Below, one piece after another: positions 2,510 to 45,201 of a DNA stretch of 54,098 nt. Under the pieces are notes generated by a model, which saw nothing but the letters and a program-made list of their open reading frames with translations, was not told the origin of the DNA and did not search any database. Location: NCBI GenBank assembly GCA_011390955.1, contig JAABRM010000049.1, positions 1-54,098 on the forward strand, read 5' to 3'. The DNA is from Oscillatoriales cyanobacterium. Its GTDB lineage: Bacteria; Cyanobacteriota; Cyanobacteriia; Cyanobacteriales; Laspinemataceae. The translations under genes and the position numbers were made by a program. The first letter of the stretch is position 1. Every line of letters starts with the position of its first letter.

Positions 2510-3006
2510 CCCGCGTCTGCACGAGGCTGACGGTTGTTAGTTGTTTGTTGTTAGTTGTTAGTTGTTTGTTGTTTGTTGTTAGTTAAGTTTACGAGCAGAA
2601 ATAAATGCACCGCAGACCAAATTAGAAGAAAAACTGTCATTCCCGCGAATGCGGGAATCCACAGCCTATCGGCGGGGAACGAAAAGTGCAATTAATTATG
2701 TTCACCTACTTGTTTGTTCTTACTGTTCGCCAACAACAACCAACCACCAACCAACAGGGAACAGGGAACAGGGAACAGGAAAGGAGAGAGTGAAGAGTGA
2801 AGAGTGAATAGTGAATAGTGGTATTTCATTGAAATGCATCACTTTTCACTTGTACGGGCGAATGGCCATTCGCCCCTACGAATTTCCCCAACCAACAACC
2901 AACAACCATCAACAACCAACAACCATCAACCAACAATCATCAACAACCAACAACCAAAGAATCCCTACCCAACAACCAACACCCCTACAGACTAATGACT
3001 AATCAA
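2510..3006. repeat. Convergent gap filled with heptamer arrays, a palindrome and a dispersed element
   Basis: The gap separates the 3' ends of the TPR gene (+) and the DUF928 gene (-). A GTT-type heptamer array (TTGTTAG/TTGTTTG) lies at 2533-2584. A complementary CAAC-type array lies at 2731-2754 and about 2887-2990. Between them are GGGAACA heptamers (about 2755-2779), AGTGAAG heptamers (about 2788-2821) and a perfect 20-bp palindrome at 2856-2875 (GGGCGAATGG/CCATTCGCCC). The dispersed element at 2583-2711 is listed separately. Any short frames here are translations of repeats. Confidence 0.85.
2583..2711 (-). mobile_element. Dispersed element with terminal inverted repeats, copy 1 (reverse orientation)
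   Basis: One end reads TTAAGTTTACGAGCAGAAAT and the other, inverted, AAGTAGGTGAACATAATTAA. It matches the copies at 9870, 26438, 39117 and 47093 in the opposite orientation, including the central hairpin CATTCCCGCGAATGCGGGAA. It carries no gene, so it resembles a MITE-like or REP-like element. Confidence 0.75.
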
Positions 3007-3756
3007 TTAATTGAACTCAGAAATAACGTTAGGATTTAAGGGTTCTAATGCCAGGTCATCCAGTTGCACCGATCGCAGAAGTTCTTCCCATTCCTGGGTT
3101 AACAGAGAATCACCGGGATTAGATCGCCGTAAGTTGGCTAATTCCGCGATCGTGTCATACCAAAAGCCCGCATTGGCATAAAGATTAACTCGTTCTATGG
3201 CCGATGCTTGCGCTAACTGTTGTTGTAAACTAGCACTAGGTTCCATCCGTCTGATTAACCCTTCAACAAAAGGATTAGCCTGCCAATTACGGCGATCGCA
3301 CATAATCGTAAACGACCAATAATAATCTTTACCAACTTCCAAAGGCGGTAAACTAGCATTTTCTGGCAAACTGAGGCTAACAATGCCAGTTTCTCCACTG
3401 GTTTTCAGGTTACTTTCATAAACAATTTCCCCACTACTATCATCAATCAGATTAAACGAAATCATCGTGGCCGAATTTGGTGGTACATACCAAAAAAACG
3501 TGGGATAATTTTGGCTCGTTAATGCTACATCTACTTTTGGTACTAAAGCCGTAAGTTTTTTTTGACTATCTGCGACACAAGTTTGTGGTGATGCTGCCGT
3601 ACCGCGTACAGCCCCACCAACTCTTCGGCCCGGAGGGGGAGTATTGGGAGCGGAAAACTCCACTGCTTGTACGGAAGGTAATCCCAACCAAAGAGAATTG
3701 AGCAATAGGGCAAAACCGATATTGGTCGCTAAAGTTTTCCGAATTTTCCTAATCAT
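3007..3756 (-). CDS. DUF928 family protein, probably exported
   Basis: 249 residues. The N-terminus has a basic start (MIRKIRK), a hydrophobic stretch and a likely signal cut after VQA near residue 31. The mature part has a Pro/Arg-rich entry (PPPGRRVGG) followed by the beta-rich segment with YPTFFWYVPPNSA and DYYWSFTIMCD, which are hallmarks of the cyanobacterial DUF928 family. The C-terminal third is helical. No enzymatic motif is visible. An AGGAG ribosome-binding site lies upstream of the chosen ATG. The gene lies 475 bp downstream of the CHASE2 cyclase on the same strand. DUF928 and CHASE2 genes are commonly neighbours in cyanobacteria, so a role in a sensory or envelope-stress pathway is a reasonable inference, but it is unproven. 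Confidence 0.82.
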   Translation of the reverse strand: MIRKIRKTLATNIGFALLLNSLWLGLPSVQAVEFSAPNTPPPGRRVGGAVRGTAASPQTCVADSQKKLTALVPKVDVALTSQNYPTFFWYVPPNSATMISFNLIDDSSGEIVYESNLKTSGETGIVSLSLPENASLPPLEVGKDYYWSFTIMCDRRNWQANPFVEGLIRRMEPSASLQQQLAQASAIERVNLYANAGFWYDTIAELANLRRSNPGDSLLTQEWEELLRSVQLDDLALEPLNPNVISEFN

Positions 3757-4231
3757 CTGGTGTTTATCTCCTATATTCTGTGATTTTTTTATTCAATTTT
3801 TAGTTGAGATTCATAAATTTTTGTAAACAACTTTTAATAAAAATTAAACCGAAAAATTAGGCGTTAATCAAGTAATTTTTTGAGTATATTTACTGAATTA
3901 TTCATGTTTAAATTATTTTTAATTCACATTAAATTTATCATAATCGACATGAATTTTATGGGAGATGTAAACGGTTTTCCCCGCTCGTCCGCTTTCTTCC
4001 TGGCAAAGCGATGGTCGATCTACCCCCCTGGGAGTTCTCGCAATCATCAGAGCATAAAATATTACTCTCTGAGTAGAAAATAATCCCCCGAAATCAGGGC
4101 AAAAAATTCCCAGGTATCAATGGGGCTATCAGTGGGGCGCATTAATTATTATAAAACTGATGAGGGAATAATTTTACTCAAGATTAAAGAATTTACCATA
4201 TCTTTAAAAATCAACTGGAAATTCTAAAATT
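3757..4231. other. AT-rich gap between DUF928 and cyclase genes
   Basis: No supported gene. A short plus-strand frame at 3880-4083 has no coding character. The stretch is strongly AT-rich at 3780-3960 and probably holds the promoter of the DUF928 gene. A GC-richer patch at about 3970-4140 has short dyads (CCCCCGAAATCAGGGC) but no recognised riboswitch. Confidence 0.4.
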
Positions 4232-6319: not shown

Positions 6320-6754
6320 ATTTACCTTCGATTTTCTAGTATGACATTTTTTGACTAGGGCTGAGGGCTATAACCCTTGATTGGGGGATTTCCCTGGATC
6401 CAAAAAGCCGCATCCGAAATCCCACCAAAGTAGCGATCGCGCTAAAGCCAATTTTGTGCCAATGCTTGATGTGTTAATACTTGATGCCAAAGATATTTCG
6501 GCAATTTCTTTATCCAAGTGAAAATATCCAGTATCCGGATCGACCATCCGGGGCGATCGCGAACCTATCCGCATGAGAAAAGAGGCTCGTAGGAGAGGGG
6601 GAAGAGAGGAGATAGAATAGAGAATAGAGAATAGAGAATAGACTATGCAAATCTTTCCTCTGTGTTATTCTGTGCCAGAAGTGGTTCAAATCTGATTATT
6701 CACCTCTTTCATTACTCACCTCTTTCATTGACATCTCTGCAATATCTTCAGGTA
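6320..6754. other. Divergent gap between cyclase and uvrC with AGAATAG heptamers
   Basis: Promoter-containing gap for two divergent genes. No gene is supported; a 68-codon minus-strand frame at 6368-6574 has no ribosome-binding site or recognisable content. GAATAGA-type heptamers run at about 6614-6643. Two short direct copies of CACCTCTTTCATT lie at about 6701-6728, upstream of uvrC. Confidence 0.5.
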
Positions 6755-8722: not shown

Positions 8723-9044
8723 CGTTGAATTGAAAGACATTGTTGGTTGTTGGTTGTTGGTTGTTATTTGTTGGTTGTTGGTTGTTGGTTGTTATTTGTT
8801 GGTTGTTGTTTGTTGTTTGTTGGTTGTTGTTTGTTGTTTGTTGTTTGTTGTTTGTTGGTTGTTGGTTGTTGTTTGTTGGTTGTTGTTTGTTGTTTGTTGT
8901 TTGTTGTTTGTCAAGATTCAACGATAAACCACCAACAACCAACCATCAACAATCAACCATCAACCATCAACAATCAACCACCAACCATCAACAACCAACA
9001 ATCAACAATCAACAATCAACAACCAACAACCAACCATCACATTT
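8723..9044. repeat. Mirror-image heptamer array between convergent genes
   Basis: From about 8742 to 8910 the plus strand is a run of TTGTTGG, TTGTTTG and TTGTTAT heptamers. From about 8930 to 9043 it is the complement type (CAACAAC, CAACCAT). The two halves can pair into a long imperfect hairpin centred near 8920. Transcripts from uvrC (+) and from the DUF3318 gene (-) both meet G/U-rich heptamers first after their stop codons. Open frames across this region are repeat translations, not genes. Confidence 0.9.
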
Positions 9045-9746
9045 TTAATAAAGCTTGTCGTAACGAGAGGTTTCGGCTTCCGGGGCTGGGCGATCGTATA
9101 AATAATCTGCTCTGGGATTATCCTGAGTCGATTTGGATTTAGCTTTAGCTTTAGCCGCACTGCGTTTGAGGGCTTGTAAGCGGGCTTCATATTTCGCCCG
9201 GAGTCGCTTTTTCGGGGTTTGTTCGATTAAAGTTTTCAGGGCACTACCCAGACTCTTGTAAGCATTAGGCAGAGAATAGCCAAAGCGAGTGGCGATCGCG
9301 ATCGCTCGTTCGTCCGCGTCAATAGCTTCTTTTAAAGTCTTTTCGCCGTTATTTTTCTGATAAAGACGATAACCAGAAACTCCACATAATGCCAAAGCCA
9401 ACAAGAGGAGTAAACCATCTTGAACCCAAAGTTCACCAACCGCCCCCCCCAAACCAATTGCCAGGGCAGCCATTTCCCAGCCTTCTCTAGGAATCGTATC
9501 GTTTTGAATCCGCGCCACTTCATGCCAAAGCAACAAGTTACGCTGATCCATCGCTAAATTTTCCCAGCGCACCAGATCCACTTGGATTTCTACCTGGTCG
9601 CTGCCAATTTCCTCGGTACGGATCAGGGGTGGATTGACTTCCACGCTTTTTTCCACCATGACCCAGCTTTGCAATTCCGGCGGCAATAAGCCTTTTAGCC
9701 GCCGTAGTTCATTCATATCCGCTTTTGTGGTCGTAAAAGAGGTCAT
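9045..9746 (-). CDS. DUF3318 family membrane protein
   Basis: 233 residues from the ATG at 9746, which has a GGGGAG ribosome-binding site; a TTG four codons upstream overlaps that site and is less likely. The N-terminal half carries the family's conserved LWHEVARIQND and REGWEMAALAIGLGGA. A hydrophobic hairpin of two membrane segments follows (about 97-134). The rest is a basic, helical, Ala/Lys-rich cytoplasmic tail (AAKAKAKSKS). DUF3318 is essentially confined to cyanobacteria and has no known function. No operon partner: the next gene on the same strand starts after a 335-bp gap that contains a dispersed repeat element. Family assignment is good, role unknown. Confidence 0.82.
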   Translation of the reverse strand: MTSFTTTKADMNELRRLKGLLPPELQSWVMVEKSVEVNPPLIRTEEIGSDQVEIQVDLVRWENLAMDQRNLLLWHEVARIQNDTIPREGWEMAALAIGLGGAVGELWVQDGLLLLLALALCGVSGYRLYQKNNGEKTLKEAIDADERAIAIATRFGYSLPNAYKSLGSALKTLIEQTPKKRLRAKYEARLQALKRSAAKAKAKSKSTQDNPRADYLYDRPAPEAETSRYDKLY

Positions 9747-9869
9747 AACGCTCCCCAAAGGTTTGCCTACAAGAAAAAACTTGTCATAATCATAAATCGT
9801 AACAATTTTTCGGCGATCGGTGTTCTTCGGTGTTCTATCGGGTTCTATCGGGTTCTATAGCAGAGATGC

Positions 9870-10024: not shown

Positions 10025-10081
10025 TTGCCGTGCCAGAGAGTACAAGACAGATCGGCGCCGTCCTCAAGGTAAATTGTTTAA

Positions 10082-12175: not shown

Positions 12176-12201
12176 CATTTCACCCGCTAACATTTTCGGC
12201 T

Positions 12202-15696: not shown

Positions 15697-18048
15697 ATGG
15701 TGAAAAAACAATTTGACCAATCTAATACACAGGCAGTAAAACGATTACGCAGGCCAAAAGCCAAGCGGATCGGCAGCGCCGTGACTCAGTATTTACTACT
15801 CCATAAACACCAGATCGGCTTACAACAGGGATCTGATGGGGCAAGCGTGTTGTCTGTAGACTCACAAAATGGGCATCTGCCTAGCCCGGTGGACGATATT
15901 CTGTCTCAGCCCAAAGATGCAAAAAAAGGGATCGATCTGAAAGAGAAGGGAGTGCTTCTGCTCCGTAGTTGCGGCAAGGTGTTGGGTTATGGATCGAAAT
16001 ATATTTTTACCTGGCCGAGTCTTTGGTTGACTTTGCTCGTAGCTTGCAGCACTACCGGGGTGATGGCATTGCGTTGGTTGCTCACCATGCCACCGCCGGT
16101 TAATTGCGAGCAACCTGCCACATTGTCGAACGATCGCCAGCAGCTTTATTGTGCCCAGAAAAATGCTGAGTCCAGAAACTTAGAAGACCTGGTAGCGGCG
16201 ATCGCCTTGGTAGAAGCATGGCCCGACGATCACCCGTTAAAATCTCAGGGGGGCAAATTAGTCGGTGAATGGTCGGTGAAAATTATGGATCTTGCCCGCC
16301 AAAAATTTGTTGAGGGGGATCTTGAGCAAGCGGAAGCATTGATTCAAAAAATTCCTGCCAGTTCCCCAGTGTATGCAGCCATTCAAGATGAGGTAGCCAC
16401 TTGGCAAGGAAATTGGGCTGACGGGAAAACCCTCTACGACCAAGCCCAAGCTGCCTTAAAAAAACAAGACTGGAGACAAGCGGAAAACTATGCTCGGAAC
16501 TTATTAGAACTTGAGAATGTTTACTGGCGCAGCACTCGTTACAGTCAACTTAAGCAGCAAATTTCTACCGAAAAACAGGCTTGGGATAAATTAAAAGAAG
16601 CTCGCTACAACGCTGGATTTAAAACCGTGGCGGACTTGGCTTTTGGCATTGACCAGGCTCGGCAAATTCCCCCACAAACTTATGTGGGAGAAGCGGCGAA
16701 ACAAGATATTGTCAAGTGGAGTCGCGATTTGCTGCAAATTGCCCAAAAGCTGTGGCAGGAAAATGATTTTGACAGTGCAGTGAGAGCCGCTAACTGGGTG
16801 CCTCGGAACAATTCGGCCTTATATCGCGAAAGTCGCGATTTGATTACCCTGATCGCCGCACAGAAACTGATGAAGCAGCAGAATTCTGCCAACGATCGCT
16901 TGGCACAAGTTTTCGCTTTTTCTGAGGCGATCGCCGCTATGGGGAATATTGAACCGAGTAGCCCCTTACATAAGGAAGTTCAAGGTTTCCAAACCAAGGC
17001 CAATGAACAAATTCAAGATTTACTGCAACTGCAATTAGCCACCGTTACCGCCAGTTTTAATCATCCCTGGGCATTAAAATTGGCGATTGACCAAGCGCAA
17101 ATGGTGACAATTAGCCGCCCCAGACGGATTGATGGTCAAACTTTAGTTGCCCAATGGACTAAAGAGATTCAGCTAATTGAGGATCGGGTTTATGTCGCCC
17201 AAGCCCAGCAAATCGCTGCCCCAGGCTCCATTGAAGCGTACCAAGCCGCGATCGCTTTGGCGAGTCAGGTGGCGCAAGGCCGTCCGATGCGGATCGAAGC
17301 CCAAACTCTGATTGCGGGTTGGAATAAACAAATTCAACGAATTGAAGACCAGCCGATCTTGGATCAAGCCTTAGCTCTGGCTAAAGCGGACAAGTTGCCT
17401 GAAGCGATTACCACCGCGAAAAAAATTACCGCCGATCGCGCTTTATATAAAGAAGCACAAGTAGAAATTGGTAAATGGCAAAGTACCCTGGAAATTGCTC
17501 AAGATCAACCAATTCTCGATCAAGCCACGGCTTTGGCCGCGCAAGGCAGTTTGGGTCTGGCGATCGATACAGCATATCAAATTAGCTATGGTCGGGCGCT
17601 TTATCCTCAAGCCCAAGAGGCGATCGCTCAGTGGTCGGGACAACTAGAAGCCATTCGAGCGGAACAAGAAGCCTTGCGGCGAGCCAGCTATCAACCACCG
17701 GCTCCGGTTTATCAAGAACCACCACCACCCCGTTATCAAGAACCGGCGCCAACTTACTATCAAGAACCAGCCCCAACTTACTACGAAGAACCAGCCCCGG
17801 TTTACTACGAAGAACCAGCCCCGGTTTACTACGAAGAACCAGCCCCGGTTTACCAAGAACCGGCGCCAACTTACTACGAAGAACCAGCCCCGGTTTACCA
17901 GGAACCGGCGCCGACTTACTACGAAGAACCAGCCCCGGTTTACCAGGAACCAGCCCCGGTTTACCAGGAAGCAGCCCCGGTTTACCAGGAACCGGCAGCG
18001 TCTCAGCAATCCTATAATGATACTCCGGCAATTGATGGCATTGAATAA
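15697..18048 (+). CDS. Membrane-anchored helical-repeat protein with Pro-Tyr-Glu-rich tail
   Basis: 783 residues. A basic N-terminal cytoplasmic region (about 1-100) leads to one membrane helix (about 106-130, WPSLWLTLLVACSTTGVMAL). A long Ala/Gln-rich helical region follows (about 150-660). Its later part repeats a unit ending in IxRIEDQPILDQALALA about every 45-55 residues (starts near 500, 545, 600). The C-terminus (about 668-770) is a low-complexity run of PAPVYYEEPAPVYQEP units. Similar cyanobacterial proteins are often labelled chromosome segregation ATPase, but I see no Walker motif, so that label is not supported. It is followed 98 bp later by the receiver/DUF3685 gene, probably as a functional pair. 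The role may be a scaffold across the plasma or thylakoid membrane. Confidence 0.72.
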   Translation: MVKKQFDQSNTQAVKRLRRPKAKRIGSAVTQYLLLHKHQIGLQQGSDGASVLSVDSQNGHLPSPVDDILSQPKDAKKGIDLKEKGVLLLRSCGKVLGYGSKYIFTWPSLWLTLLVACSTTGVMALRWLLTMPPPVNCEQPATLSNDRQQLYCAQKNAESRNLEDLVAAIALVEAWPDDHPLKSQGGKLVGEWSVKIMDLARQKFVEGDLEQAEALIQKIPASSPVYAAIQDEVATWQGNWADGKTLYDQAQAALKKQDWRQAENYARNLLELENVYWRSTRYSQLKQQISTEKQAWDKLKEARYNAGFKTVADLAFGIDQARQIPPQTYVGEAAKQDIVKWSRDLLQIAQKLWQENDFDSAVRAANWVPRNNSALYRESRDLITLIAAQKLMKQQNSANDRLAQVFAFSEAIAAMGNIEPSSPLHKEVQGFQTKANEQIQDLLQLQLATVTASFNHPWALKLAIDQAQMVTISRPRRIDGQTLVAQWTKEIQLIEDRVYVAQAQQIAAPGSIEAYQAAIALASQVAQGRPMRIEAQTLIAGWNKQIQRIEDQPILDQALALAKADKLPEAITTAKKITADRALYKEAQVEIGKWQSTLEIAQDQPILDQATALAAQGSLGLAIDTAYQISYGRALYPQAQEAIAQWSGQLEAIRAEQEALRRASYQPPAPVYQEPPPPRYQEPAPTYYQEPAPTYYEEPAPVYYEEPAPVYYEEPAPVYQEPAPTYYEEPAPVYQEPAPTYYEEPAPVYQEPAPVYQEAAPVYQEPAASQQSYNDTPAIDGIE

Positions 18049-18063
18049 ATTGTATTATTTAAG

Positions 18064-20003: not shown

Positions 20004-20039
20004 TCAGAATTCAGCAGCAAAAAGACTGCTGAATTCTGA
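20004..20039. terminator. Perfect 14-bp-stem hairpin between convergent genes
   Basis: TCAGAATTCAGCAG (20004-20017) pairs with CTGCTGAATTCTGA (20026-20039) around an 8-nt loop, CAAAAAGA. It starts immediately after the TAA of the DUF3685 gene and lies 14 bp before the end of the ferrochelatase-like gene, so it probably serves both strands. Confidence 0.75.
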
Positions 20040-20053
20040 ATGATTACGCCCCT

Positions 20054-29513: not shown

Positions 29514-30668
29514 ATGTTTCGTAAAATTCCCTTAGCTTGGTTACAACTGACCAGAGAAAAAAGCCGATTATGCGCCGCTTTAGCGGGGATTGTTTTTGCG
29601 GATATTTTAATGTTTATGCAGTTAGGATTCCGCGAAGCTTTATTTAATTCTAACACCCGGATGCATAAAAATTTAAACGCTGATTTAGTGATGATTAATA
29701 CGAAATCAGAATCTTTAGTTTCTGTGCAAAAATTTTCTCATCGGCGTTTATACCAAACTCTGGGTTTTTCCGAAGTGGAAGCGATCGCCCCCTTATATGT
29801 AGGTCAACTCAAATGGAAAAATCCCTTTAATCGCAAAGATCGGGTGATTTTAGTGTTTGGCATGAAACCGAGTCAACCGGCTTTTTTAATGCCAGAAGTG
29901 GCCGAAAAATCTCATTTAATTCAACTCCCAGATGTGGTATTATTTGATCGAATGTCGCGGCGGGAGTTTGGCGAAGTAGCCCAAGCAGTTGACCAAGGAA
30001 AACCTGTCACCACCGAGGTGGGAGTTAGGCGAATTGAAGTAAAAGGTTTATTTAGTTTGGGGGCATCTTTTGCCGCTGATGGGAATTTAATCACCAGTGA
30101 TTTAAATTTTATTCGCCTATTTCCGAATCGTCGCCTGGGAGAAATTGACATCGGTTTAATTAGACTAAAACCGAATAGTGACCCCACCGCAGTCTTGGCG
30201 AAAATTCGCCAATATTTACCCAGTGACGTGCAAGTTTTTACCAAACAAGGCTATCTGGATTATGAAAAATCCTATTGGGAAAAACGCACCGCCATTGGCT
30301 TTGTGTTTCGGTTTGGGGTGATTATGGGTTTTATTGTGGGCTTGGTGATTGTTTATCAAATTATTTATACTGATGTGGCGGATCATTTGGCGGAATACGC
30401 GACTCTCAAAGCAATGGGATATCAAGAGGTTTATTTTTATAGTTTAGTGCTTCAAGAAGCTTTTTTATTGGCAATTTTAGGCTATATTCCCGGAATTGTT
30501 TGTAGTTTATTTTTGTATAAAATGGCAAGGTCAGCCACTATGTTACCGATTTTAATGACCCTGCCTAGGGTGCTGACTGTTCTGGGATTGACGATTTTTA
30601 TGTGTGCGGTTTCCGGCGCGATCGCCATGCGGAAATTGCAAGAAGCTGACCCAGCGGATATTTTTTAG
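29514..30668 (+). CDS. devC: DevC-type ABC transporter permease (orphan)
   Basis: 384 residues. N-terminal membrane helix (PLAWLQLTREKSRLCAALAGIVFADILMF split around residues 7-35), a large periplasmic domain (about 40-260) and three C-terminal helices (about 263-290, 310-345, 350-370) give the MacB/FtsX-like permease pattern. LGFREALFNSN, HLAEYATLKAMGY and the end KLQEADPADIF are typical of DevC. In heterocystous strains DevBCA plus TolC exports envelope glycolipids. Here neither the ATPase DevA nor the adaptor DevB is adjacent, so partners must be elsewhere or absent. It lies 7 bp after panB and ends in a convergent heptamer array. Confidence 0.9.
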   Translation: MFRKIPLAWLQLTREKSRLCAALAGIVFADILMFMQLGFREALFNSNTRMHKNLNADLVMINTKSESLVSVQKFSHRRLYQTLGFSEVEAIAPLYVGQLKWKNPFNRKDRVILVFGMKPSQPAFLMPEVAEKSHLIQLPDVVLFDRMSRREFGEVAQAVDQGKPVTTEVGVRRIEVKGLFSLGASFAADGNLITSDLNFIRLFPNRRLGEIDIGLIRLKPNSDPTAVLAKIRQYLPSDVQVFTKQGYLDYEKSYWEKRTAIGFVFRFGVIMGFIVGLVIVYQIIYTDVADHLAEYATLKAMGYQEVYFYSLVLQEAFLLAILGYIPGIVCSLFLYKMARSATMLPILMTLPRVLTVLGLTIFMCAVSGAIAMRKLQEADPADIF

Positions 30669-30906
30669 TTATTGGTTCTTTGTTGGTTGTTCTTTGTTGG
30701 TTGTTCTTTGTTATTTGTTGGTTGTTGTTTGTTGGTTGTTCTTTGTTATTTGTTGGTTGTTGGTGGCGTAAATCCAATTAACAAATAACAATCAACAATC
30801 AACAATCAACCACCAACCAACAACAACCAACCAACAACAACCAACAACAACCAACCAACAACAACCAACCAACAACAATCAACAATCAACCAACAACAAA
30901 TAACAA
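30669..30906. repeat. Mirror-image heptamer array between devC and murQ
   Basis: TTGTTGG/TTCTTTG-type heptamers occupy about 30672-30763 and the complementary CAACAAC/CAACCAA type about 30780-30905. The array fills the entire convergent gap right up to both stop codons, with the same polarity as the arrays at 2510 and 8723. Confidence 0.9.
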
Positions 30907-31827
30907 TTATTTTTGACTGTTAAAAGCGTCTACGGCATTTCTAAGATGTCCTTGATGTTTGGCTAGGAATTGTTTGCCAGTTTCGGCATCTAGTCCAGTC
31001 CAATGCATTAATAAGGCCAATTTCACCGATCGCCCGCTTTTTTCCAGGAGATAGCCGCATTCCGTCCGGTTGAGATGGGTCAAATCTTCGAGAATGCGTA
31101 ATGAGCGATCGTGCAGTTTGCGATTAGTTACGGCTACGTCAATCATCCGGTTGCCATAAACTTTGCCCAACTTGACCATCACCCCAGTAGAAATAATATT
31201 TAAGGCCATTTTGGTGACAGTGCCCGCTTTCAGACGAGTGGAACCAGCGAGAATTTCCGGCCCCACCACGAGACGCAGTTCAATATCCGCGTTGCTGCTG
31301 GCTTGATCCGTGGGGACGCAACTCATAAAGGCAGTGGTGGCGCCCCTACTCCGAGCCGCGTCTAGGGCGCCCAACACATAAGGGGTCGTCCCTCCCGCAC
31401 TAATGCCGATCACCACATCCAATTCGGTGACACGACGATGAGCGATCGCCTCTTCCCCGTCCTCATATTTATCCTCTAAGTTTTCCGAAGACCGCACCAA
31501 AGCCCCCGCCCCCCCAGCAATAATTCCTTGGATTAATTCTGGGGGAGTGCAAAAAGTGGGGGGACATTCCGCCGCATCTAATACTCCCAAACGCCCGCTG
31601 GTGCCTGCCCCCACATAGAATAGTCTGCCTCCTTTCCTTAAAGCCGTGGCAGTGCGATCGATGACTTCTGCCAAAGGTTCTTGGGCATTCGCGATCGCCT
31701 CCAGGGTCTTGGCATCTTCCTGATTAAATAACTGCACCAACTCCAGAGAAGTCAGTTGATCTAAATTTTGACTTTTCGGATTAACCTGTTCCGTCAGCAA
31801 AAATCCTCGGTCTTCCAAGCGATTCAT
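30907..31827 (-). CDS. murQ: N-acetylmuramic acid 6-phosphate etherase
   Basis: 306 residues, the normal length. MurQ cleaves the lactyl ether of MurNAc-6-phosphate to GlcNAc-6-phosphate and D-lactate during peptidoglycan recycling in the cytoplasm. The SIS sugar-phosphate-binding domain is clear: FYVGAGTSGRLGVLDAAECPP (the Glu of AAEC is the catalytic residue), GISAGGTTPYVLGALDAAR and GSTRLKAGTVTKMALNI, followed by the C-terminal helical bundle. No anmK or transporter gene is adjacent. The region upstream of its start carries the left arm of a long inverted repeat. Confidence 0.96.
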   Translation of the reverse strand: MNRLEDRGFLLTEQVNPKSQNLDQLTSLELVQLFNQEDAKTLEAIANAQEPLAEVIDRTATALRKGGRLFYVGAGTSGRLGVLDAAECPPTFCTPPELIQGIIAGGAGALVRSSENLEDKYEDGEEAIAHRRVTELDVVIGISAGGTTPYVLGALDAARSRGATTAFMSCVPTDQASSNADIELRLVVGPEILAGSTRLKAGTVTKMALNIISTGVMVKLGKVYGNRMIDVAVTNRKLHDRSLRILEDLTHLNRTECGYLLEKSGRSVKLALLMHWTGLDAETGKQFLAKHQGHLRNAVDAFNSQK

Positions 31828-31982: not shown

Positions 31983-32000
31983 CCACATACCGCCGCCAAC

Positions 32001-32390: not shown

Positions 32391-32638
32391 GGATCGAGCA
32401 CGATTTTCCTTACCTGAATTATTGCCTTTATCTTACAAGGGTGTAGGCTGTAGGGTGTAGGGGGGCAGGGTGTAGGGAAGCCGCCGTCGTGTAGGGTGTA
32501 GGGTGTAGGGTGTAGGGTGTAGGGAAGAGGGAATAATTGATAATTTTCTTTAATTGTCAATTATCAATTATCAATTGTCAATTATTCCCCACACCCCACA
32601 CCTCCCACACCTCCCACACCTCCCACACCTCATCCCCT
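32391..32638. repeat. Divergent gap: TGTAGGG heptamers, inverted-repeat arm and nonamer array
   Basis: TGTAGGG units at about 32441-32524, then the right arm of the 44-bp inverted repeat (32533-32576), then CACACCTCC nonamers (about 32591-32631) ending 8 bp before the tamB ATG. Promoters for both genes must be embedded in or displaced by these arrays. Confidence 0.88.
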
Positions 32639-35600
32639 ATGACTGATTCGCCAAAATCTGAAAATTCATCCTTAGATCCATTATCCAGCGCCCAGGCAAA
32701 CCCTCTTTTATCCTCTAAATTGTGGCGCCGTGGGGCCATTGGTTTGGGCGTCGTCCTAGTGGTTGGGACGGCGGGCGCTATATCATGGTTATGGATTTTT
32801 GTCAATAATGACTTAGGGCCATTAGTAGAAAAAGAACTGGGGAAACTCATCGATCGCCCGGTAAAAATTGGCCCTATTGAAGAGTTTTATCTCACGGGTT
32901 TACAAGTGGGGGCTTCAGCAATTCCCGTCACGGAAACTGACCCGGATTTTGTAGAAATTCCGACGGTAAAAGTGGGATTTGACCCTTTCATGTTGCTATT
33001 CAGACGCACGCTGAATTTAAAAATTTCTTTGCAACAACCGAAGATTTATATAGAACAAGATATTAACAATACTTGGTTAGACTTAAACCTGAAAAAATCA
33101 TCGGCTGCTCAGAAAATAGTTAATATTAATATCAAAACCGTGGAAATTATCAATGGTCAGGTAATTTTAGCCCCAAATGGCACCCGTCGCGCCCAGTTAT
33201 TTGACCTAGAAGAACCAATGGTATTGAATCCGGTGCTGTTGGAAAATGTGCAAGCCAAAGCCCGCTTTTTTAATCAGCAAAAAGAAACCCGCTATCATGT
33301 CACAGCCAAACCCAAAAGCGGCGGTAATTTAATTATTAATGGTCATTCTATTTTGTCCAATTTAGTCAGCAATATCCATCTTAAAGGCAAAAATTTAGAC
33401 GGTGCTAATATTAGCCCATTAATTGCTAATTTACCCGTGAGAGTTGACCAAGGTAAATTAAATTGTGATTTGGAATTAAACTTAGCGAAAACTACTGTCA
33501 CTGCTTGGCGGGGTAATGCTAATTTTGAACAGGTCAATGGTCAATTAGGAACCTTAGACCAACCAATTTCCCAGGCATCCGGTCAAGTCAAGTTTGAAGA
33601 TTTGCGGGTTTTTTTGAGTAAAACTGAGGCAATTTATGGGGAATTACCCCTAAAAGTGAATGGAACAATTGACACTCAATCTGATTATGATTTAGCCATT
33701 AGTATTCCCTCTTTAAGTTTAGCCAATTATATTAATACTCTGGAGTTAAATCTGCCGGTTCCGGTGACTGGGGCAGCGAGTACGGAGTTACAAGTTACTG
33801 GCCCTTTGTTGAATCCTATTTTATCGGGGATGGTGGTAGCAACGGCACCGGGAAAAGTGGATTTAATTGAGGTCGGGGCAGCGAGTGCTAGGTTTAGCAT
33901 GGAGGGAGAAGATTTAGCGATTACGGATATTCAAGTTAAACCAATTCTGGGCGGTTTTATTTATGGTCGAGGCAATATTCAGTTAACCGAAATTCCCCAG
34001 TTAGGCTTTTATTTGCTAGGGGAAAATTTACCCGGAGATGCGATCGCGCAACTGTATCGGGCAGAAAAACCGCCGTTTACTATTGGTCGAATTCATGGCA
34101 GTGCTAAAGTATTGGGACAAGCAGACCAACCCACAACTCTGGTTAATTGGCGATCGCCGGAAATGAAATATCCTGGCAGTGGAGAATTGACGATTACTCA
34201 AGACACAATTTTATTGAATAATAGCGTCTTTCAAGTAGCGGGAGGAACCGTAAACGCGATCGGCGCTATCATGCCAACCAAAGACCGCTGGCAAGCATTC
34301 TTAAAAGCGCAAAATATCGAGCTAAATCAACTCACTGCCTCTACTACAAATCCCGCAGAAAATGCCAACCAAAAAAATAATAGCCCAGAAAATAATATCC
34401 CAAAAAATAATATCCCAGAAAATAATATCCCAAAAAATAATATCCCAGAAAATACCGCCCCAGCATATCCGGCAATTTTAGCCGGTGGACTAAGACTTTC
34501 TGGGAAATTAACATCCTTAACTCCGGCAAATATTCAAGGGTCAGGAGAAGTAGAACTCACTACCCTTGACGCGAAAGTAACGGGTAGAGGCACCTTGGAC
34601 AGAGGAAAATGGCTTGCCTCATTAGGGGTGCAAACTTTACCCGGAAAAGCCCTGCGATTGAATGAATTAATTCCCGACTTACCCATACCAATGGAATTAG
34701 GTAGTGGCACTTTGGAATTATCGGGAACCGTAGACTCATTCGACCCAAAAAAATTTGACCCAAAAAAGATTGATGCCAAGGGTACTTTAAAGGTGAATTT
34801 GCCAGAAACCGGCATGGTGACAGCTTCCGCTAATTTACAACAAGGTCAAGTCACGGCAACGGCAATTTTGACCGCAACTGAGGGGCGATCGCTTTCTTTA
34901 AACCCTTGGACACCATTTATCCGCGTTCCTGTTAGTTTAACCGAGGGAAACCTAGAACTTTCTGGGGCGATCGATCCGTTATTTGACCATTTTTTTTCGG
35001 CAAAAGTCAGCCATTCAAAGTTATCCGATATAATCTTGAATACTTGGTCATTTCATAGCACCATTCAGCTATTAATTGCGGGGGCAGCAGTCACAGGAAA
35101 GGGACGCTTAGAACAAGGTGAAATAGAACTTAGCGCTATTTTAAATTCTGATAACCTTTTATCGTTAAATCCCTGGAAACAGGATTTACCTGTTCCCGTG
35201 GAATTAACAGCGGGTAGTCTGGAACTTTCCGGGTCAATTGCGCCAATTTTATCTGGGGATAAACCCGTCTCTGACATATTAAATAGTTGGTCTGGGAATA
35301 GCAATATTCAACTATTAATTGCTGGGGCAGCAGTGACCGGAAAGGGACGCTTAAAACAAGGGCAACTAGAACTTAGCGCTATTTTAAATTCTGATAACTT
35401 TTTATCGTTAAATCCCTGGAAACCGGATTTACCTGTTCCCCTGGGTGTCACCGCAGGTAATGTGGAATTTTCGGGTAAAATTGATAGTTTATTAGCTCAA
35501 TTTTATGCCGCTTATGATAAGATTAATTTTAGGGGTTTAAATACTTGGTCTGGTCGGGGCAATGTCCAATTAAATTTAGCCGGAAATGCGATCGCTGCTG

Positions 35601-38600
35601 AGGGCAATTTTATAGGCGATCGCTGGCAAGCTTCTCTGAATACAGAAAACTTAAATCTTAATTCATTAGCCCCGAATTTACCCGCAGCCATAAACGCCAA
35701 AGGTTCAATCGATTTATCTGGGTTTCTCACTTCTTTTTCTCCCCAAGATATTCAAGCAGAGGGCGAACTTACTCTGATAAACCAACCCGGTTTAAATGAT
35801 AGCCAAAGTTCGGGGTTATCTCAACTCCTTCCTTTATATAGTGAGTGGCGTTGGAATGGAGAAATTTTACAAATTGAACAAGCAAAAGCCCCTGGTTTAA
35901 GCGTAGATGGTCAATTATTTGTCCAGTGGCAAAACCAACGCCCCACGGTAAGCCAATTTGACCTTAATCTTCAGGTAAACCAATTTAATTTAGCGGCTAA
36001 TTTAGCGGCTAATTTAGCGGCTTTACCCTTGCCCGTAAATCAGGGTAAAACACCGGAACAGTTAACCCTAGAAAATTCTGGTAATCTAGAAAATAAAATA
36101 TCCCCCAGTTTGCCGTTTATGCCATTGGCGATCGCGGGTTTATTGGACTTTAACGGTCGGTTGCGAGGTCAGCTTAACTCCAATTTTTTTCACCATGAAA
36201 GCCAAACTATTCCCGAACGGCTACTAAATTCTCAGATTTGGATCGCTGGGGATTTACAGGTGCAAAATTTAGCGGTTAATAACTGGCAATTTGCCTCCTC
36301 TTTATCGGGAAAAATTAATCTGGATACTCATCAGAGTTTGCAGGTTAACCTAGAAGGAGATAACAGTCAAATTGCCTTAGCAATTAATCATCCCCTCTAT
36401 GAAAATATCTCCACCTGGTCAGCCACCGGATTGGTCAAAAATGCGGAAACGATTCTATCCGCAAATTTAGCCACGCAACAACTATCGGTTGCTGTGGAAA
36501 ATTTCCCGTTAAATCGGTTAAATATTGCCCCTGCCCCTGCCTATTATTATAATTCCGTTTCAGGGATATTCAACGGTAATTTTAATTTAAACTTAGCCAC
36601 GTTTTTGGGAGATGGCAAAATTGCGATCGCGCATCCAGCATTGGGCAATTTGTTCATGGATCAAATTCAGGCGGAAATTTATAGCGATCGCGGCAAAATA
36701 GCCATTTCCAACGCTACTTTACAAATGAACCAAAGTCTCTATCGATTAGATGCCCAATTTAACCTTAATTCTAAACCAGAGATTCAGGGAAAATTGACCA
36801 TCAACCAAGGAAATATCTCAGATGCTTTGGCGGCAATGCGCTGGTTTACCATTGACGACCTGAAACGAGGGTTATTACCCCCAAATTATAGCCATCAAAA
36901 TAGTTTGCCAACGGAGGCGGCTGGGTTGCCCAATGGGAGTTTATATGACCAATTAAGCCGCTTTTCAGAAATCAAGGCAATCCTGTTACAAATTGCCACC
37001 AAAAGAAGAGAACCAGCTTTCCCTAAATTAGCAGATATTCGCGGATTTGTCAATGGTGAAATAACCTTTAATGGGTCTTTCAATACGGGAATTAATGCCA
37101 CATTTAATCTATTAGCGAATCAGTTAGAATGGCGACCGCAACCCAGTTATGTAGTCAGTACCCCAGAAGGGTTGGAACGGGTCGATAATCGAGTGATTAA
37201 TATTGACCGGGCTATTTTTCAAGGTAGCTGGCAAGATGGTAATTTAATCGTTCACCCATTGCGGATAGAAAACCCAGAAACTTCGATTTCTTTTATTGGG
37301 ACAATTTTCGGGAAAAACCCGTCTGGACAATTACAAATTAGAAATTTATCTGGGGCAGATTTGCGTAACTTTATGGATATTCCCGGATATCGAGTAGATG
37401 GTCGGTTAAATTTAACCGCGAACCTGTCGGGAAATTGGGAAAATATCCAAGCCAAAGGAGAAATGAGTTTTTCTGAAGTGCGCTTAAATGGGGAAAATTT
37501 GGCTAATATTAAAGGAGGATTTAACTATGGTAATTCGCGTTTAGCCATTAGTACCATTGAACCGGATAATTTCCAAATTTTTACCAATTTACCCGTCCCT
37601 CCATTTCCCGGAAATGAACAATTTAGTCTGAATGTGCAGATTGAAAATGAAGGGTTGACTTTGGCGAATATTTTAACCGGGCAACAAGTGACCTGGGTTG
37701 AGGGAAATGGGGAACTGAAACTTCAGATAGCAGGTAAGTTAAACGCTGAGAAAGGAACCCTGACAGAAATTACGGCAAATGGTAGCGCGATCGCCGCTAA
37801 TGCCACCATTAATGCCCAAGCATTACCGGAACCTTTAACCAATATTAATGGGCAAGTATTTTTTAACGAAAATTTAATTTTTGTGCCAGAGATTAAAGGA
37901 GAATTTAGTCAAGGAAAAGTTTTAGCCCAAGGAGTCCTGCCAATTTTTCGACCGCTATCAAAAAACGATCTTAATCTGTTTCGTATGGGTAAATTTGCGG
38001 AGATATGGCAACAACAGTCATCAAATAATTTACCGGAAAACTCGACATTAGCACCTCCAGAAATCCTGGATTTTTTACAGGTTGATTTAGCGGGAGTTAA
38101 GATCGACTTTAAAGATTTATATCGGGGAAGAGTGGCTGGTCAATTTCAAATTACTGGCACGGCATTTTCTCCCAAAATTGGCGGCAATATTACTTTATCT
38201 GAGGGGATAGTGTTATTACCAGATTCCTCAGAAACCGCGATCGCGCGTCCGATCTTAGAAGAAATCCAAGTATTTACCCCACAGTATAAAAATTTGCAAC
38301 TCACATTAGGGGAAAATATCCGCATTGCCAATCCGCCATTGTTAGAATTTATTGGCAGTGGCGATTTATTAGTTAATGGTTTTTTTGAGGACTTAAAGCC
38401 AGAAGGAGTTATTCGCTTAAAAAAGGGTGAACTTAACTTATTTACCACCCAATTCAGATTAGCCAGTGGTTATGAACATTTTGCCGAATTTACCGGGGAT
38501 TTAGATCCGAATATTGAACTACGATTAGTCGCTTCTGTCCCGGAAGTGACTCGAAGGGAATTTTCGGCAACTTCGGCTTCAGAAATTAGAGAAGCGGTGA

Positions 38601-39097
38601 ATACTGGGATTGGAGAATTGCGGACAGTTCGGGTAGAAGCGGTGGTGAGTGGACGGTCTTCGCAAATGTTTGATGCGGTAGAATTAACCAGTAATCCCGC
38701 GAGAGATGAAGCGGAAATTGTCGCGTTAATTGGCGGCGGTTTTGCGAATACTTTGGGACGGGGAGATAGTCCATTGGCGATCGCAAATTTAGCCGGTTCT
38801 GCGGTGTTAAAAAATGTCCAAACTGAAATTGGTGATGCCTTTGGTTTAAGTGAATTTAGATTATTGCCGGTGATGGTGCAGTCCGGGGGAGATACTCGTC
38901 TAGCTTTAGAAGTTGAAGCGGGAATTGATTTAGGTCGTCAATTCTCTTTTTCCGTAGTTTGGCCGAAGCTTTTTCTAGATAATGAAAATACCCGATATAA
39001 TATTCGTTATCGATTTAACGATCGCCTTATCTTGCGAGGATCTACGGATTTTCAAGGGGATAATCGTGCTAGAATTGATTATGAATTTCGGTTTTAA
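32639..39097 (+). CDS. tamB: TamB/TIC236-like inner-membrane-anchored translocation or lipid-transport protein
   Basis: 2152 residues from the ATG at 32639; the in-frame extension to 32537 only translates repeats. One N-terminal membrane helix (about 37-60) anchors a very long periplasmic beta-rich body built of AsmA-like repeats. The C-terminal 400 residues are the TamB (DUF490) domain, with FRLASGYEHFAEFTGDLDP, VEAVVSGRSSQMFD, ARDEAEIVALIGGGF, and a terminal Phe after IDYEFRF. Such bridge-like proteins span the periplasm, with roles in outer-membrane protein assembly or phospholipid transport; the plastid relative is TIC236. It is far longer than E. coli TamB (about 1260), partly through an 81-codon internal duplication and a NNIPE/NNIPK repeat (34378-34450). 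Confidence 0.88.
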   Translation: MTDSPKSENSSLDPLSSAQANPLLSSKLWRRGAIGLGVVLVVGTAGAISWLWIFVNNDLGPLVEKELGKLIDRPVKIGPIEEFYLTGLQVGASAIPVTETDPDFVEIPTVKVGFDPFMLLFRRTLNLKISLQQPKIYIEQDINNTWLDLNLKKSSAAQKIVNINIKTVEIINGQVILAPNGTRRAQLFDLEEPMVLNPVLLENVQAKARFFNQQKETRYHVTAKPKSGGNLIINGHSILSNLVSNIHLKGKNLDGANISPLIANLPVRVDQGKLNCDLELNLAKTTVTAWRGNANFEQVNGQLGTLDQPISQASGQVKFEDLRVFLSKTEAIYGELPLKVNGTIDTQSDYDLAISIPSLSLANYINTLELNLPVPVTGAASTELQVTGPLLNPILSGMVVATAPGKVDLIEVGAASARFSMEGEDLAITDIQVKPILGGFIYGRGNIQLTEIPQLGFYLLGENLPGDAIAQLYRAEKPPFTIGRIHGSAKVLGQADQPTTLVNWRSPEMKYPGSGELTITQDTILLNNSVFQVAGGTVNAIGAIMPTKDRWQAFLKAQNIELNQLTASTTNPAENANQKNNSPENNIPKNNIPENNIPKNNIPENTAPAYPAILAGGLRLSGKLTSLTPANIQGSGEVELTTLDAKVTGRGTLDRGKWLASLGVQTLPGKALRLNELIPDLPIPMELGSGTLELSGTVDSFDPKKFDPKKIDAKGTLKVNLPETGMVTASANLQQGQVTATAILTATEGRSLSLNPWTPFIRVPVSLTEGNLELSGAIDPLFDHFFSAKVSHSKLSDIILNTWSFHSTIQLLIAGAAVTGKGRLEQGEIELSAILNSDNLLSLNPWKQDLPVPVELTAGSLELSGSIAPILSGDKPVSDILNSWSGNSNIQLLIAGAAVTGKGRLKQGQLELSAILNSDNFLSLNPWKPDLPVPLGVTAGNVEFSGKIDSLLAQFYAAYDKINFRGLNTWSGRGNVQLNLAGNAIAAEGNFIGDRWQASLNTENLNLNSLAPNLPAAINAKGSIDLSGFLTSFSPQDIQAEGELTLINQPGLNDSQSSGLSQLLPLYSEWRWNGEILQIEQAKAPGLSVDGQLFVQWQNQRPTVSQFDLNLQVNQFNLAANLAANLAALPLPVNQGKTPEQLTLENSGNLENKISPSLPFMPLAIAGLLDFNGRLRGQLNSNFFHHESQTIPERLLNSQIWIAGDLQVQNLAVNNWQFASSLSGKINLDTHQSLQVNLEGDNSQIALAINHPLYENISTWSATGLVKNAETILSANLATQQLSVAVENFPLNRLNIAPAPAYYYNSVSGIFNGNFNLNLATFLGDGKIAIAHPALGNLFMDQIQAEIYSDRGKIAISNATLQMNQSLYRLDAQFNLNSKPEIQGKLTINQGNISDALAAMRWFTIDDLKRGLLPPNYSHQNSLPTEAAGLPNGSLYDQLSRFSEIKAILLQIATKRREPAFPKLADIRGFVNGEITFNGSFNTGINATFNLLANQLEWRPQPSYVVSTPEGLERVDNRVINIDRAIFQGSWQDGNLIVHPLRIENPETSISFIGTIFGKNPSGQLQIRNLSGADLRNFMDIPGYRVDGRLNLTANLSGNWENIQAKGEMSFSEVRLNGENLANIKGGFNYGNSRLAISTIEPDNFQIFTNLPVPPFPGNEQFSLNVQIENEGLTLANILTGQQVTWVEGNGELKLQIAGKLNAEKGTLTEITANGSAIAANATINAQALPEPLTNINGQVFFNENLIFVPEIKGEFSQGKVLAQGVLPIFRPLSKNDLNLFRMGKFAEIWQQQSSNNLPENSTLAPPEILDFLQVDLAGVKIDFKDLYRGRVAGQFQITGTAFSPKIGGNITLSEGIVLLPDSSETAIARPILEEIQVFTPQYKNLQLTLGENIRIANPPLLEFIGSGDLLVNGFFEDLKPEGVIRLKKGELNLFTTQFRLASGYEHFAEFTGDLDPNIELRLVASVPEVTRREFSATSASEIREAVNTGIGELRTVRVEAVVSGRSSQMFDAVELTSNPARDEAEIVALIGGGFANTLGRGDSPLAIANLAGSAVLKNVQTEIGDAFGLSEFRLLPVMVQSGGDTRLALEVEAGIDLGRQFSFSVVWPKLFLDNENTRYNIRYRFNDRLILRGSTDFQGDNRARIDYEFRF

Positions 39098-39116
39098 TTT
39101 ATTTTGTTTATTTGGT

Positions 39117-39273
39117 TTAAGTAGGTGAACATAATTAATTGCACTTTTCGTTCCCCACCGTAAATCCTTGGATTCCCGTCGGAGTTTACCCCCGCGAAGG
39201 CCGCCATCGGCGGGAATGACAGTTTTTCTTCTGATATAGTCTGTGGTGAATTTATTTCTGCCCACCTACTTAA
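39117..39273 (+). mobile_element. Dispersed element with terminal inverted repeats, copy 4 (most complete)
   Basis: 157 bp. Left end TTAAGTAGGTGAACATAATT, right end inverted TTAAGTAGGTGGGCAGAAAT: termini agree over about 28 bp with a few mismatches. The inside has GGATTCCCGTCGGAGTTTAC and CGCCATCGGCGGGAATGACA. There is no coding capacity. Confidence 0.85.
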
Positions 39274-39281
39274 TTGATTTT

Positions 39282-39377
39282 GCCCTACTCGTAGGGTGGG
39301 CAAAACCTTGCCCACCCGACAAAATTTATAGCCCTATTCGTAGGGTGGGCAAAACCTTGCCCACCCGACAAAATTTA
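39282..39377. repeat. GTAGGGTGGGC palindromic element, two tandem copies (B)
   Basis: Two 47-bp units (39282-39328 and 39331-39377), 49 bp apart, differ at one base. Each has a hairpin GGGTGGGCAA-AACC-TTGCCCACCC. With element copy 4 they fill the convergent gap between the tamB-like and Uma2 genes. Confidence 0.85.
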
Positions 39378-39399
39378 GCTATTTTCTATTTACAGTTAC

Positions 39400-40236: not shown

Positions 40237-40404
40237 AGTTAATTGTTTCTCATCGCAGTTTATGGGGAATATTATAGCATTTTGAGAGGATTTGATAGGG
40301 CGATCGCACCTGAAAAAAACACGATTGGTGCGATCGCTTTTGTTGATGGTAGAGCGATCGATTATAATTAACTTAAAATCTGTGGGATTATTTGATTCAG
40401 AACC

Positions 40405-40632
40405 ATGACATTTACACTGCAAGCAATTTATGAACAAGGAATGCTGCGACTCATGCAGCCCGTCGATCTACCTGAAGGAACATCAGTTAAAGTAATCATT
40501 ACTGCCAATGACTCGACTCAGGAGGTGGAAAATCCCGCCGATATTTTGGCTCAAATTGCCGCATTACCTTTAGAAGGCGATCCCGAAAATTTTTCTGGAC
40601 GCGACCACGATCGCATTCTCTATCCCTATTAG
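40405..40632 (+). CDS. DUF104/AF2212-type antitoxin-like protein, without an adjacent toxin
   Basis: 75 residues. The N-terminus (LQAIYEQGMLRLMQPVDLPEGTSVKVII) is the DUF104 beta-hairpin motif of AF2212-like antitoxins. The tail DPENFSGRDHDRILY resembles the toxin-contacting end of VapB-type partners of PIN nucleases. A perfect TATAAT at 40363-40368 could be its -10 box. Normally a VapC/PIN toxin gene follows within a few bases. Here the next 260 bp hold only a Uma2 gene remnant and a palindrome. It is therefore an orphan, either silenced after toxin loss or acting in trans. Confidence 0.75.
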   Translation: MTFTLQAIYEQGMLRLMQPVDLPEGTSVKVIITANDSTQEVENPADILAQIAALPLEGDPENFSGRDHDRILYPY

Positions 40633-40794
40633 AAATAAATCATAATATCCTTAGATTCGTCAATTTGGCTCAATAATTTGGCTCAATTATTGTCATTCCC
40701 TAAAACTGAAATTCTCAAATTTGTCGGTCAACCAGAGAGGCGATCGCTCTTGCTGTGTTGAGCAGCTTGGCGATCGCCTCTCCGCCACCGTTAT

Positions 40795-40835
40795 TTACAG
40801 TTCATCCGGGTTAATTAAGAAGCGATCGCAGTAAC
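40795..40835 (-). pseudogene. Remnant of a second Uma2-type gene 3' end
   Basis: On the minus strand this stretch reads ...CTGCGATCGCTTCTTAATTAACCCGG..., ending GATGAACTGTAA (broken here for length). It aligns with the last 14 codons of the Uma2 gene at 39400 (RSQGINPEEL-stop) with a one-base insertion and a few changes; INPDEL-stop is preserved. No upstream coding part survives. Confidence 0.6.
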
Positions 40836-40857
40836 GCAGTTATCTAAAGCAACACTT

Positions 40858-40886
40858 TAGGGTGGGCAACATTTTGCCCACCCTAC
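40858..40886. repeat. GTAGGGTGGGC palindromic element, short copy C
   Basis: TAGGGTGGGCAA then CATTTTGCCCACCCTA: a short perfect-stem version 8 bp from the stop of the WD40 membrane protein gene. It is a plausible terminator for it. Confidence 0.75.
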
Positions 40887-40893
40887 ATTAATG

Positions 40894-43797: not shown

Positions 43798-43837
43798 AAT
43801 CCAATATTCTCAATATTCTCAATGGTAATTTAGCAAG

Positions 43838-43869
43838 AGGATCGTTATCATCTTAGATGATGCGATCCT
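43838..43869. promoter_or_regulatory. Inverted repeat in the divergent promoter region (WD40 protein / xylanase)
   Basis: AGGATCGTTATCATC (43838-43852), loop TTA, GATGATGCGATCCT (43856-43869): arms match except for a one-base bulge. It lies 41 bp upstream of the WD40 gene start and 25 bp upstream of the xylanase ATG. It could be a shared operator or a 5'-UTR hairpin. Confidence 0.5.
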
Positions 43870-43893
43870 AGTATAACTGCCAGGAAAAATATA

Positions 43894-44985: not shown

Positions 44986-44989
44986 GGAA

Positions 44990-45181
44990 TAATTGATAAT
45001 TGATAATTATCAATTGATAATTATCAATTGTTAATTAAGCATAATTGATAATTAAACTTAATTAATAATTAAACGTAATTATCAATTATCAATTATCAAT
45101 TATGTTTAATTAACAATTATCAATTGTTAATTATGTTTAATTATCAATTATCAATTATCAATTGTTAATTATCAATTGTTT
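44990..45181. repeat. AATTGAT/ATTATCA heptamer array between convergent genes
   Basis: Begins with TTGATAA units, alternates through several inverted blocks (AATTGTTAATTA, TTTAATTA spacers) and ends with TTATCAA units, so it can fold on itself repeatedly. It fills the gap between the GH10 gene (+) and the first chemoreceptor gene (-). Confidence 0.9.
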
Positions 45182-45201
45182 TCCCGATGGCGGCCCCAAA
45201 A

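Follow-up and report, generated by a model that had tools for sequence, protein, structure and literature searches.

G-outward polarity of heptamer arrays at gene ends in an Oscillatoriales cyanobacterium

Introduction

The heptamers known from cyanobacteria as short tandemly repeated repetitive (STRR) sequences are degenerate 7-nt tandem arrays that lie between genes and differ in abundance from lineage to lineage. Here, we describe arrays of this type in a 54,098-nt stretch of an Oscillatoriales cyanobacterium (GenBank assembly GCA_011390955.1, contig JAABRM010000049.1), which was analysed over its whole length and is called the window below. The window is one entire contig of a genome of 7.12 Mb in 113 contigs, and its UvrC is 85% identical to UvrC of Planktothricoides sp. 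SR001, on which ground the organism is probably a Planktothricoides or a near relative. An inspection of the letters alone, referred to here as the original prediction, had noted that GT-rich and AC-rich heptamer arrays face each other between convergent genes of the window. Our analysis indicates that the polarity of these arrays is real, is wider than first described and is largely known already: the G-bearing strand runs away from the open reading frame (ORF) at either end of a gene, whatever the direction of that gene.

Results

Genes were called with a custom script that scored ORFs by codon usage (cut-off 18), which leaves 5' ends approximate. The caller recovered the same seven convergent gaps of the window on which the original prediction was built. 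In three of them (2510-3006, 8723-9044 and 30669-30906), a GT-rich heptamer arm follows the stop codon of the left gene and an AC-rich arm precedes that of the right gene; the other four lie at 20004-20053, 39098-39399, 40633-40893 and 44986-45201. At the uvrC gap, a GT arm of TTGTTGG/TTGTTGT units (8740-8911, plus strand) begins 17 nt past the uvrC stop codon, and an AC arm of TCAACAA and related units (8926-9041, minus strand) ends 3 nt from the stop codon of a DUF3318 gene (9045-9758, minus strand). The gap at 30669-30906 is filled to both borders: its GT arm (30661-30766, plus strand) overlaps the stop codon of an FtsX-like gene (29514-30668), and its AC arm (30780-30906, minus strand) abuts that of a SIS-domain gene (30907-31827, minus strand). 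In the first gap, GTTGTTA/GTTGTTT units form a GT arm (2532-2580, plus strand) about 22 nt past the stop codon of a TPR gene (1274-2509; Pfam), and CAACAACC units form an AC arm (2886-2985, minus strand) that ends about 21 nt from the stop codon of a DUF928 gene (3007-3756, minus strand). Between these two arms lie a repeat resembling a miniature inverted-repeat transposable element (MITE) at 2588-2718 (minus strand; edges approximate, set by eye) and, at 2730-2756 (minus strand), a short AC block adjoining it, followed by AACAGGG and AGAGTGA heptamers. Tandem Repeats Finder reported period-7 units at 8740-8911, 8918-9039, 30675-30762 and other places in the window. With degenerate 7-nt tandem units in many dispersed, mainly intergenic copies, these heptamer arrays are of the STRR type. 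The statement that the GT-rich half adjoins each gene in that gene's sense direction is true of all three TTGTTGG arrays.

The orientation of the arrays was then compared with that of neighbouring genes in a 2.27-Mb sample (about 32%) of the same genome, which was taken in 84 pieces and yielded 1,479 called genes, 1,316 gaps and 257 GT/AC arrays. Five contigs were covered in long runs, the window contig in full and 78 others over their first 20 kb (or their whole length); contigs C85-C113 lay outside the sample. Placement in a gap was possible for 207 of the 257 arrays, the remaining 50 lying at piece ends (22) or overlapping called genes (28). Of the 207 intergenic arms, 128 lay within 30 nt of an ORF. 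At 3' ends, 93 of 97 such arms were sense GT; at 5' ends, 29 of 31 were sense AC. With the window excluded, the counts were 87/91 and 29/31. The non-random polarity claimed in the original prediction is thus borne out at 3' ends, and its restriction to convergent genes is too narrow, as 5' ends follow the same outward rule. Arrays wholly within called genes were sense AC in 22 of 22 cases, although AC arrays counted in genes near a start may be start mis-calls. Far from genes the orientation was lost: of the single arms with no gene within 100 nt, 9 pointed outward and 10 inward, with the reservation that such "single" arms often run on into other heptamers overlooked by the GT/AC caller.

The arms are also concentrated at stop codons. 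The 93 outward 3'-end arms divide into 21 that reach over the stop or last codons, 40 that begin 0-3 nt past the stop, 22 at 4-10 nt and 10 at 11-30 nt. Consecutive arms within a gap followed the order GT then AC 46 times, AC then GT once, and were of one kind 16 times. When a pair touched only one gene, the contact was with a stop codon 16 times out of 17, and 11 times out of 12 in codirectional gaps, in which a start codon could have been touched instead. Array-free 3' flanks have a GC skew of 0.03-0.05 over their first 20 nt and a smaller one farther out, which identifies the 3'-end rule as a property of the arrays and rules out a general base skew of 3' flanks (at most 0.05) as its cause. 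Seeding at the stop codon through the phase of TTGTT was considered too; the phases are uneven (25/87 in phase 0, chi-square p 7e-5), and the effect is too weak to claim.

Inverted repeats are commonest between convergent genes. Among gaps of 40-600 bp, a perfect stem of at least 10 bp was present between convergent genes in 117 of 186, between codirectional genes in 246 of 609 and between divergent genes in 36 of 158, compared with 0-4% of shuffled gaps (Fisher p 9e-8 and 6e-14 in the comparison of convergent, codirectional and divergent gaps). The claim that every convergent gap contains inverted repeats holds for the seven of the window and fails genome-wide, since 69 of 186 convergent gaps in the sample are without such a stem. 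Mirrored heptamer arrays, described as frequent in convergent gaps, occur in the three window gaps; in the sample, GT/AC arrays were found in only 36 of 231 convergent gaps, and in 88 of 855 codirectional and 20 of 230 divergent ones. When gaps of at least 100 bp were compared (36/199, 88/660 and 20/221, respectively), the excess of convergent over codirectional gaps was not significant (p=0.11; 0.24 without the window), and that over divergent gaps gave p=0.009 (0.026 without the window). Array bases made up 6.7% of convergent, 3.4% of codirectional and 1.8% of divergent gap bases. Because the GT-then-AC order occurs in codirectional and divergent gaps as well, the arrays are not peculiar to convergent gaps; these counts and the polarity at 5' ends rule out a convergent-only rule.

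Having mirrored arms does not make these arrays good palindromes. We compared facing arms in 38 of the 46 consecutive GT-then-AC pairs (spacer at most 80 nt), in a draft assembly from which perfect palindromes could be absent. The 7-mer cosine of facing arms was 0.305 against a permuted mean of 0.416 (p for lower values 5e-5), their RNA duplex was weaker than that of permuted pairs (p 5e-5), and their longest exact complementary run was 14.4 versus 16.8 in permuted pairs (p=0.006). Under-assembly is an unlikely cause, since words of only 5 and 7 nt, much shorter than those used in assembly, already show the difference; most simply, long perfect inverted repeats would be lost or selected against. 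In these 38 pairs, the arms are therefore not more complementary than chance, as those of an intrinsic terminator would be. Nor do they show a conserved core or arms specifically complementary within each copy, both of which would be expected of a MITE or of repetitive extragenic palindromes and bacterial interspersed mosaic elements (REP/BIME). No shared loop or core was seen by eye among the 38 pairs, whose spacers of 0-80 nt are of unrelated sequence, and a mobile palindrome with a common core is ruled out on this ground.

The outward rule extends beyond the GT/AC family. The own-genome sample holds 336 intergenic period-7 arrays of all families, and 96 of the 104 gaps that contain both orientations of any heptamer were sorted with the G strand first (about 45 expected, maximum 59 in 500 shuffles). 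Period-7 arrays outside the GT/AC family and within 10 nt of an ORF had the G strand outward at 35 of 41 3' ends. In a complete congeneric sister genome (G002), GT/AC arms no farther than 30 nt from a gene pointed outward in 24 of 25 cases and 16 of 18 gaps were sorted; the G002 stretches were picked for orthology, so that array frequency there is no fair sample, whereas polarity is less affected. Other cyanobacteria, sampled at 79 loci, had period-7 arrays that pointed outward in 24 of 29 cases within 30 nt (p=0.0005), and the same caller found no GT/AC arrays in the gaps of these loci. The GTTGTTGGTTGTTGG 15-mer has 1,211 matches in the present genome, 244 and 269 in two congeners and 0-9 in 16 other relatives; these counts indicate that the arrays are expanded in this lineage.

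Comparison with G002 gives a view of how the arrays have changed. Synteny between the genomes is poor: in the partial samples compared, 64 reciprocal best hits and 33 conserved gaps (from the first 400 kb) were found at a median gene identity of about 91.5%, and gene order looks strongly reshuffled. The gap-by-gap comparisons were read by eye, and only about a dozen gaps were comparable. At the uvrC gap, G002 has a gene of 234 aa followed, at the DUF3318 end, by a mirrored array made up of about four TTGTTAT/ATAACAA units, and SR001 matches G002 there at 799 of 800 bases. The window has no counterpart of this 234-aa ORF of SR001 and G002, and its place is taken by long TTGTTGG arrays that start close to the junction. 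Nine further gaps, at L150 and C1, were compared with G002; of the seven that have GT/AC arrays here, G002 has none in four and smaller or different mirrored arrays in three. In two of the array gains, old gap sequence was replaced. At L140 5043-5312, a pair common to both genomes is alike at the gene edges and centre and has longer arms here, and at L150 5705-6134 new heptamers were added at the centre. By these comparisons, the arrays are fast-changing and absent from a sister at some sites. Two other differences were seen nearby: a gene of the 23S rRNA-intervening-sequence type (PF05635) stands between two GT arrays at L150 1527-1910, where the sister has a small mirrored array only, and may have been gained or lost with the arrays; and a 46-bp unit (CATTCCCGCGAATGCGGGAATCC...) is present eight times at L150 4284-4762 against about 14 bp in G002.

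The remaining four convergent gaps of the window are varied in content. That at 20004-20053 is an ordinary 13-bp perfect hairpin (stem read by eye) without a heptamer array. The gap at 39098-39399 contains a MITE-like repeat (39123-39268, plus strand; edges by eye) and two copies of a 49-bp unit with GTAGGGTGGGC hairpins (39282-39377). The gap at 40633-40893, with two short hairpins seen by eye, is defined on its left by a weak plus-strand ORF (40404-40632, score 22.2), and a nest of AATTGAT and ATCAATT heptamers occupies 44989-45180 between the convergent genes that flank 44986-45201. The MITE-like repeats at 39123-39268 and 2588-2718 belong to one family, present in both orientations; the 26-mer core of this family (at most 2 mismatches) has 215 copies in the genome compared with 69 and 78 in two congeners, and the family is another lineage-specific expansion. 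Nine flanking genes look ordinary by Pfam (TPR, DUF928, UvrC, DUF3318, FtsX-like, SIS, TamB, WD40 and CHASE3/MCP). Internal tandem repeats occur in the TamB-like gene (32537-39097; 15-bp-based, at 34356-34463) and in the gene at 15697-18048 (45-bp repeats at 17761-17993, near its 3' end).

Discussion

We propose, with about even confidence, that the arrays are slippage products of the STRR type, expanded in this Planktothricoides-like genome, that mostly arise at stop codons, take up intergenic DNA where this is tolerated, as far as the ORF, and persist only if their orientation is one that genes can accommodate. Nucleation would take place mostly at stop codons, and arms would lengthen by 7-nt slippage within themselves, replacing or pushing aside dispensable intergenic DNA until an ORF boundary puts a stop to growth. 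Opposite arms meet at a centre that is not conserved. Orientation would be filtered by what genes tolerate: the G-bearing strand, when sense, would bring TTG and GTG start codons into leaders and hydrophobic codons into ORFs, whereas the C-bearing strand would bring neither, and this could account for the 5' and coding halves of the rule. We found no translational reason for the 3' half, and for this reason propose that the arrays probably start or grow in a set direction, which would give the polarity at 3' ends. Period-7 identity along the G strand was higher at the 5' end than at the 3' end (0.844 versus 0.803, p=0.003, 150 arms), a gradient that fits growth toward the gene and is weak evidence for it.

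Several observations weigh against this proposal. The avoidance of sense-AC arrays after stop codons is explained by nothing that we tested, so that the 3' half of the rule rests on a growth direction that we infer; the regularity gradient is small and gives p=0.21 for the 95 outward near-gene arms alone. Both arms occurred in one gap 45 times against 8.2 expected from independent births, an excess that points to arms being born in pairs and leaves room for break healing or insertion as their source, and the array gain at L150 5177-5407 is, by eye, a clean insertion that added about 150 bp at the cost of about 3 bp. Not all clusters adjoin genes either: in codirectional gaps of at least 300 bp, 35 of 66 array clusters lie more than 15 nt from both genes, while 25 touch a stop codon and 7 a start codon, one of them both. 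Array-free 5' flanks are themselves skewed, toward T outward by 0.15 over their first 10 nt and in GC by up to 0.09. Outside the GT/AC family, the 5' half of the rule is weaker, with the G strand outward at only 5 of 11 5' ends among period-7 arrays within 10 nt of an ORF. AATTGAT arrays, the strands of which differ only in G versus C, include 8 with the C strand outward and 1 mixed besides 22 with the G strand outward within 30 nt of genes (p=0.016). At the 79 other cyanobacterial loci, the 5' side alone is not significant (8/11), and the 7 of 8 gaps that are sorted fall within the shuffle range.

A bolder form of the proposal, which we regard as tentative and on balance improbable, would apply to all bacterial heptamers (TTGTTGG, AATTGAT and GGGNATC alike). 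These would all have the G strand running away from the ORF, originate at stop codons and extend one way only, as set by the strand, until they reach coding DNA; gaps would become nested quasi-palindromes, G first and C second, whose arms are kept different, and gene ends would be hot spots of directional DNA synthesis or repair.

Selection on the sense strand alone could also produce polarity if arrays landed and grew without direction, G-sense arrays being purged from leaders and ORFs and AC-sense arrays from trailers. The uniform sense-AC orientation of arrays within genes (22/22) and its predominance at starts (29/31) are what such purging would leave, as is the random orientation far from genes. 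We nevertheless consider it unlikely that selection is the whole explanation: removal alone gives no pile-up at stop codons, where 61 of 93 arms overlap the stop or start at most 3 nt past it, and we know of no reason for purging AC arrays past stop codons, of which 4 of 97 are left.

The original prediction interpreted the mirrored arrays as a repeat-built bidirectional barrier to transcription or a site where such repeats are tolerated. The latter alternative fits our results well. The former, in which a terminator or barrier between convergent genes is selected through transcripts that meet GUUGUUGG first and through a hairpin of the two arms, now appears decidedly unlikely. In its favour, convergent gaps are rich in stems (117/186) and have the highest share of array bases (6.7%), and a short array of mirrored heptamers lies at the homologous DUF3318 end in the sister genome. 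Against it, facing arms pair worse than permuted arms, and such below-chance complementarity argues against a barrier made of GUUGUUGG and then its complement; codirectional gaps are about as rich in arrays (p=0.11), the rule holds at 5' ends too, and several orthologous gaps have no array or a smaller one in the sister. Low complementarity and the 5'-end rule together rule out the hairpin barrier as our principal interpretation, and we do not favour the view that the arrays are hairpin-built transcription barriers; they may incidentally affect transcript 3' ends.

It is very doubtful that a palindromic mobile element, REP/BIME- or MITE-like, inserts preferentially past stop codons and always reads GT then AC. 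The clean insertion at L150 5177-5407, the strong co-occurrence of arms and the stop-codon anchoring of one-sided pairs (16/17) would suit such an element, and REPs are described as lying mostly between codirectional and convergent ORFs (PMC3733652); on the other side, the 38 pairs share neither loop nor core by eye, their spacers are unrelated, arms are unlike within a pair and other heptamers share the order. Least probable, and very unlikely in our estimation, is break healing, in which each 3' end at a double-strand break gains G-strand heptamers before the ends are joined: it would give the G-first order with arms that are no copies of each other and is consistent with some junctions having lost an entire gene or the former gap sequence and with the new heptamers at the centre of L150 5705-6134, but units are slightly more regular at the G-strand 5' end than at the centre, the opposite of growth from the centre, unoriented single arms would be predicted near genes, and there is no candidate enzyme. 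A link to reverse transcriptases is ruled out, as RVT_1 matches (6 here, 5 and 19 in the two congeners) do not track array number.

What seems most worth following is the generality of the outward rule together with the anti-complementarity of the arms. If the rule reflects directed array growth, stop codons would be sites of strand-specific DNA synthesis in bacteria; if it reflects selection, the arrays would be a measure of what genes tolerate beside their ends. Either way, our results caution against taking mirrored repeat arrays for terminators, as facing arms here avoid complementarity.

The arrays resemble STRR heptamers in being degenerate 7-nt intergenic tandem arrays of lineage-specific abundance. 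REP/BIME palindromes of the GTAG and CGTC families are likewise extragenic and lie downstream of coding regions, and are palindromic repeats of 20-40 bp, the GTAG ones being tied to RAYT (REP-associated tyrosine transposase) enzymes (PMC3733652), in contrast to the present arrays, which have no conserved core by eye. TAACTGA heptamers of Beggiatoaceae and some cyanobacteria are ORF-oriented 7-nt direct repeats, the largest class of which ends 1 nt upstream of the start codon (MacGregor 2015, PMC4679880); unlike the arrays described here, they are located mostly at starts, consist of two to six units and carry forward-strand stop codons in all frames.

In titles and abstract openings, we found no published account of the TTGTTGG family, of its stop-codon anchoring or of below-chance complementarity of facing arms. 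The polarity rule itself, for which the original prediction knew no precedent, had already been published for other heptamers: in 2015, Rehm et al. (PMC4692102) reported the outward rule for GGGNATC and GGGGA(C/T)T heptamers of Xanthomonas and Nostoc PCC 7120. Convergent mirrored pairs are described there for Xanthomonas, with only a few pairs in Nostoc. As in that report, the G strand here points outward from the nearer ORF regardless of its direction (93/97 and 29/31). The repeats of Rehm et al. have G tracts that form quadruplexes and a preference for four units, whereas by inspection the TTGTTGG-type units have G runs of at most 2; long arms, many pairs and facing arms of below-chance complementarity set the present arrays further apart from them. 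Our findings thus join the 2015 observation in Xanthomonas and Nostoc to a different, GT-type repeat in another cyanobacterium.

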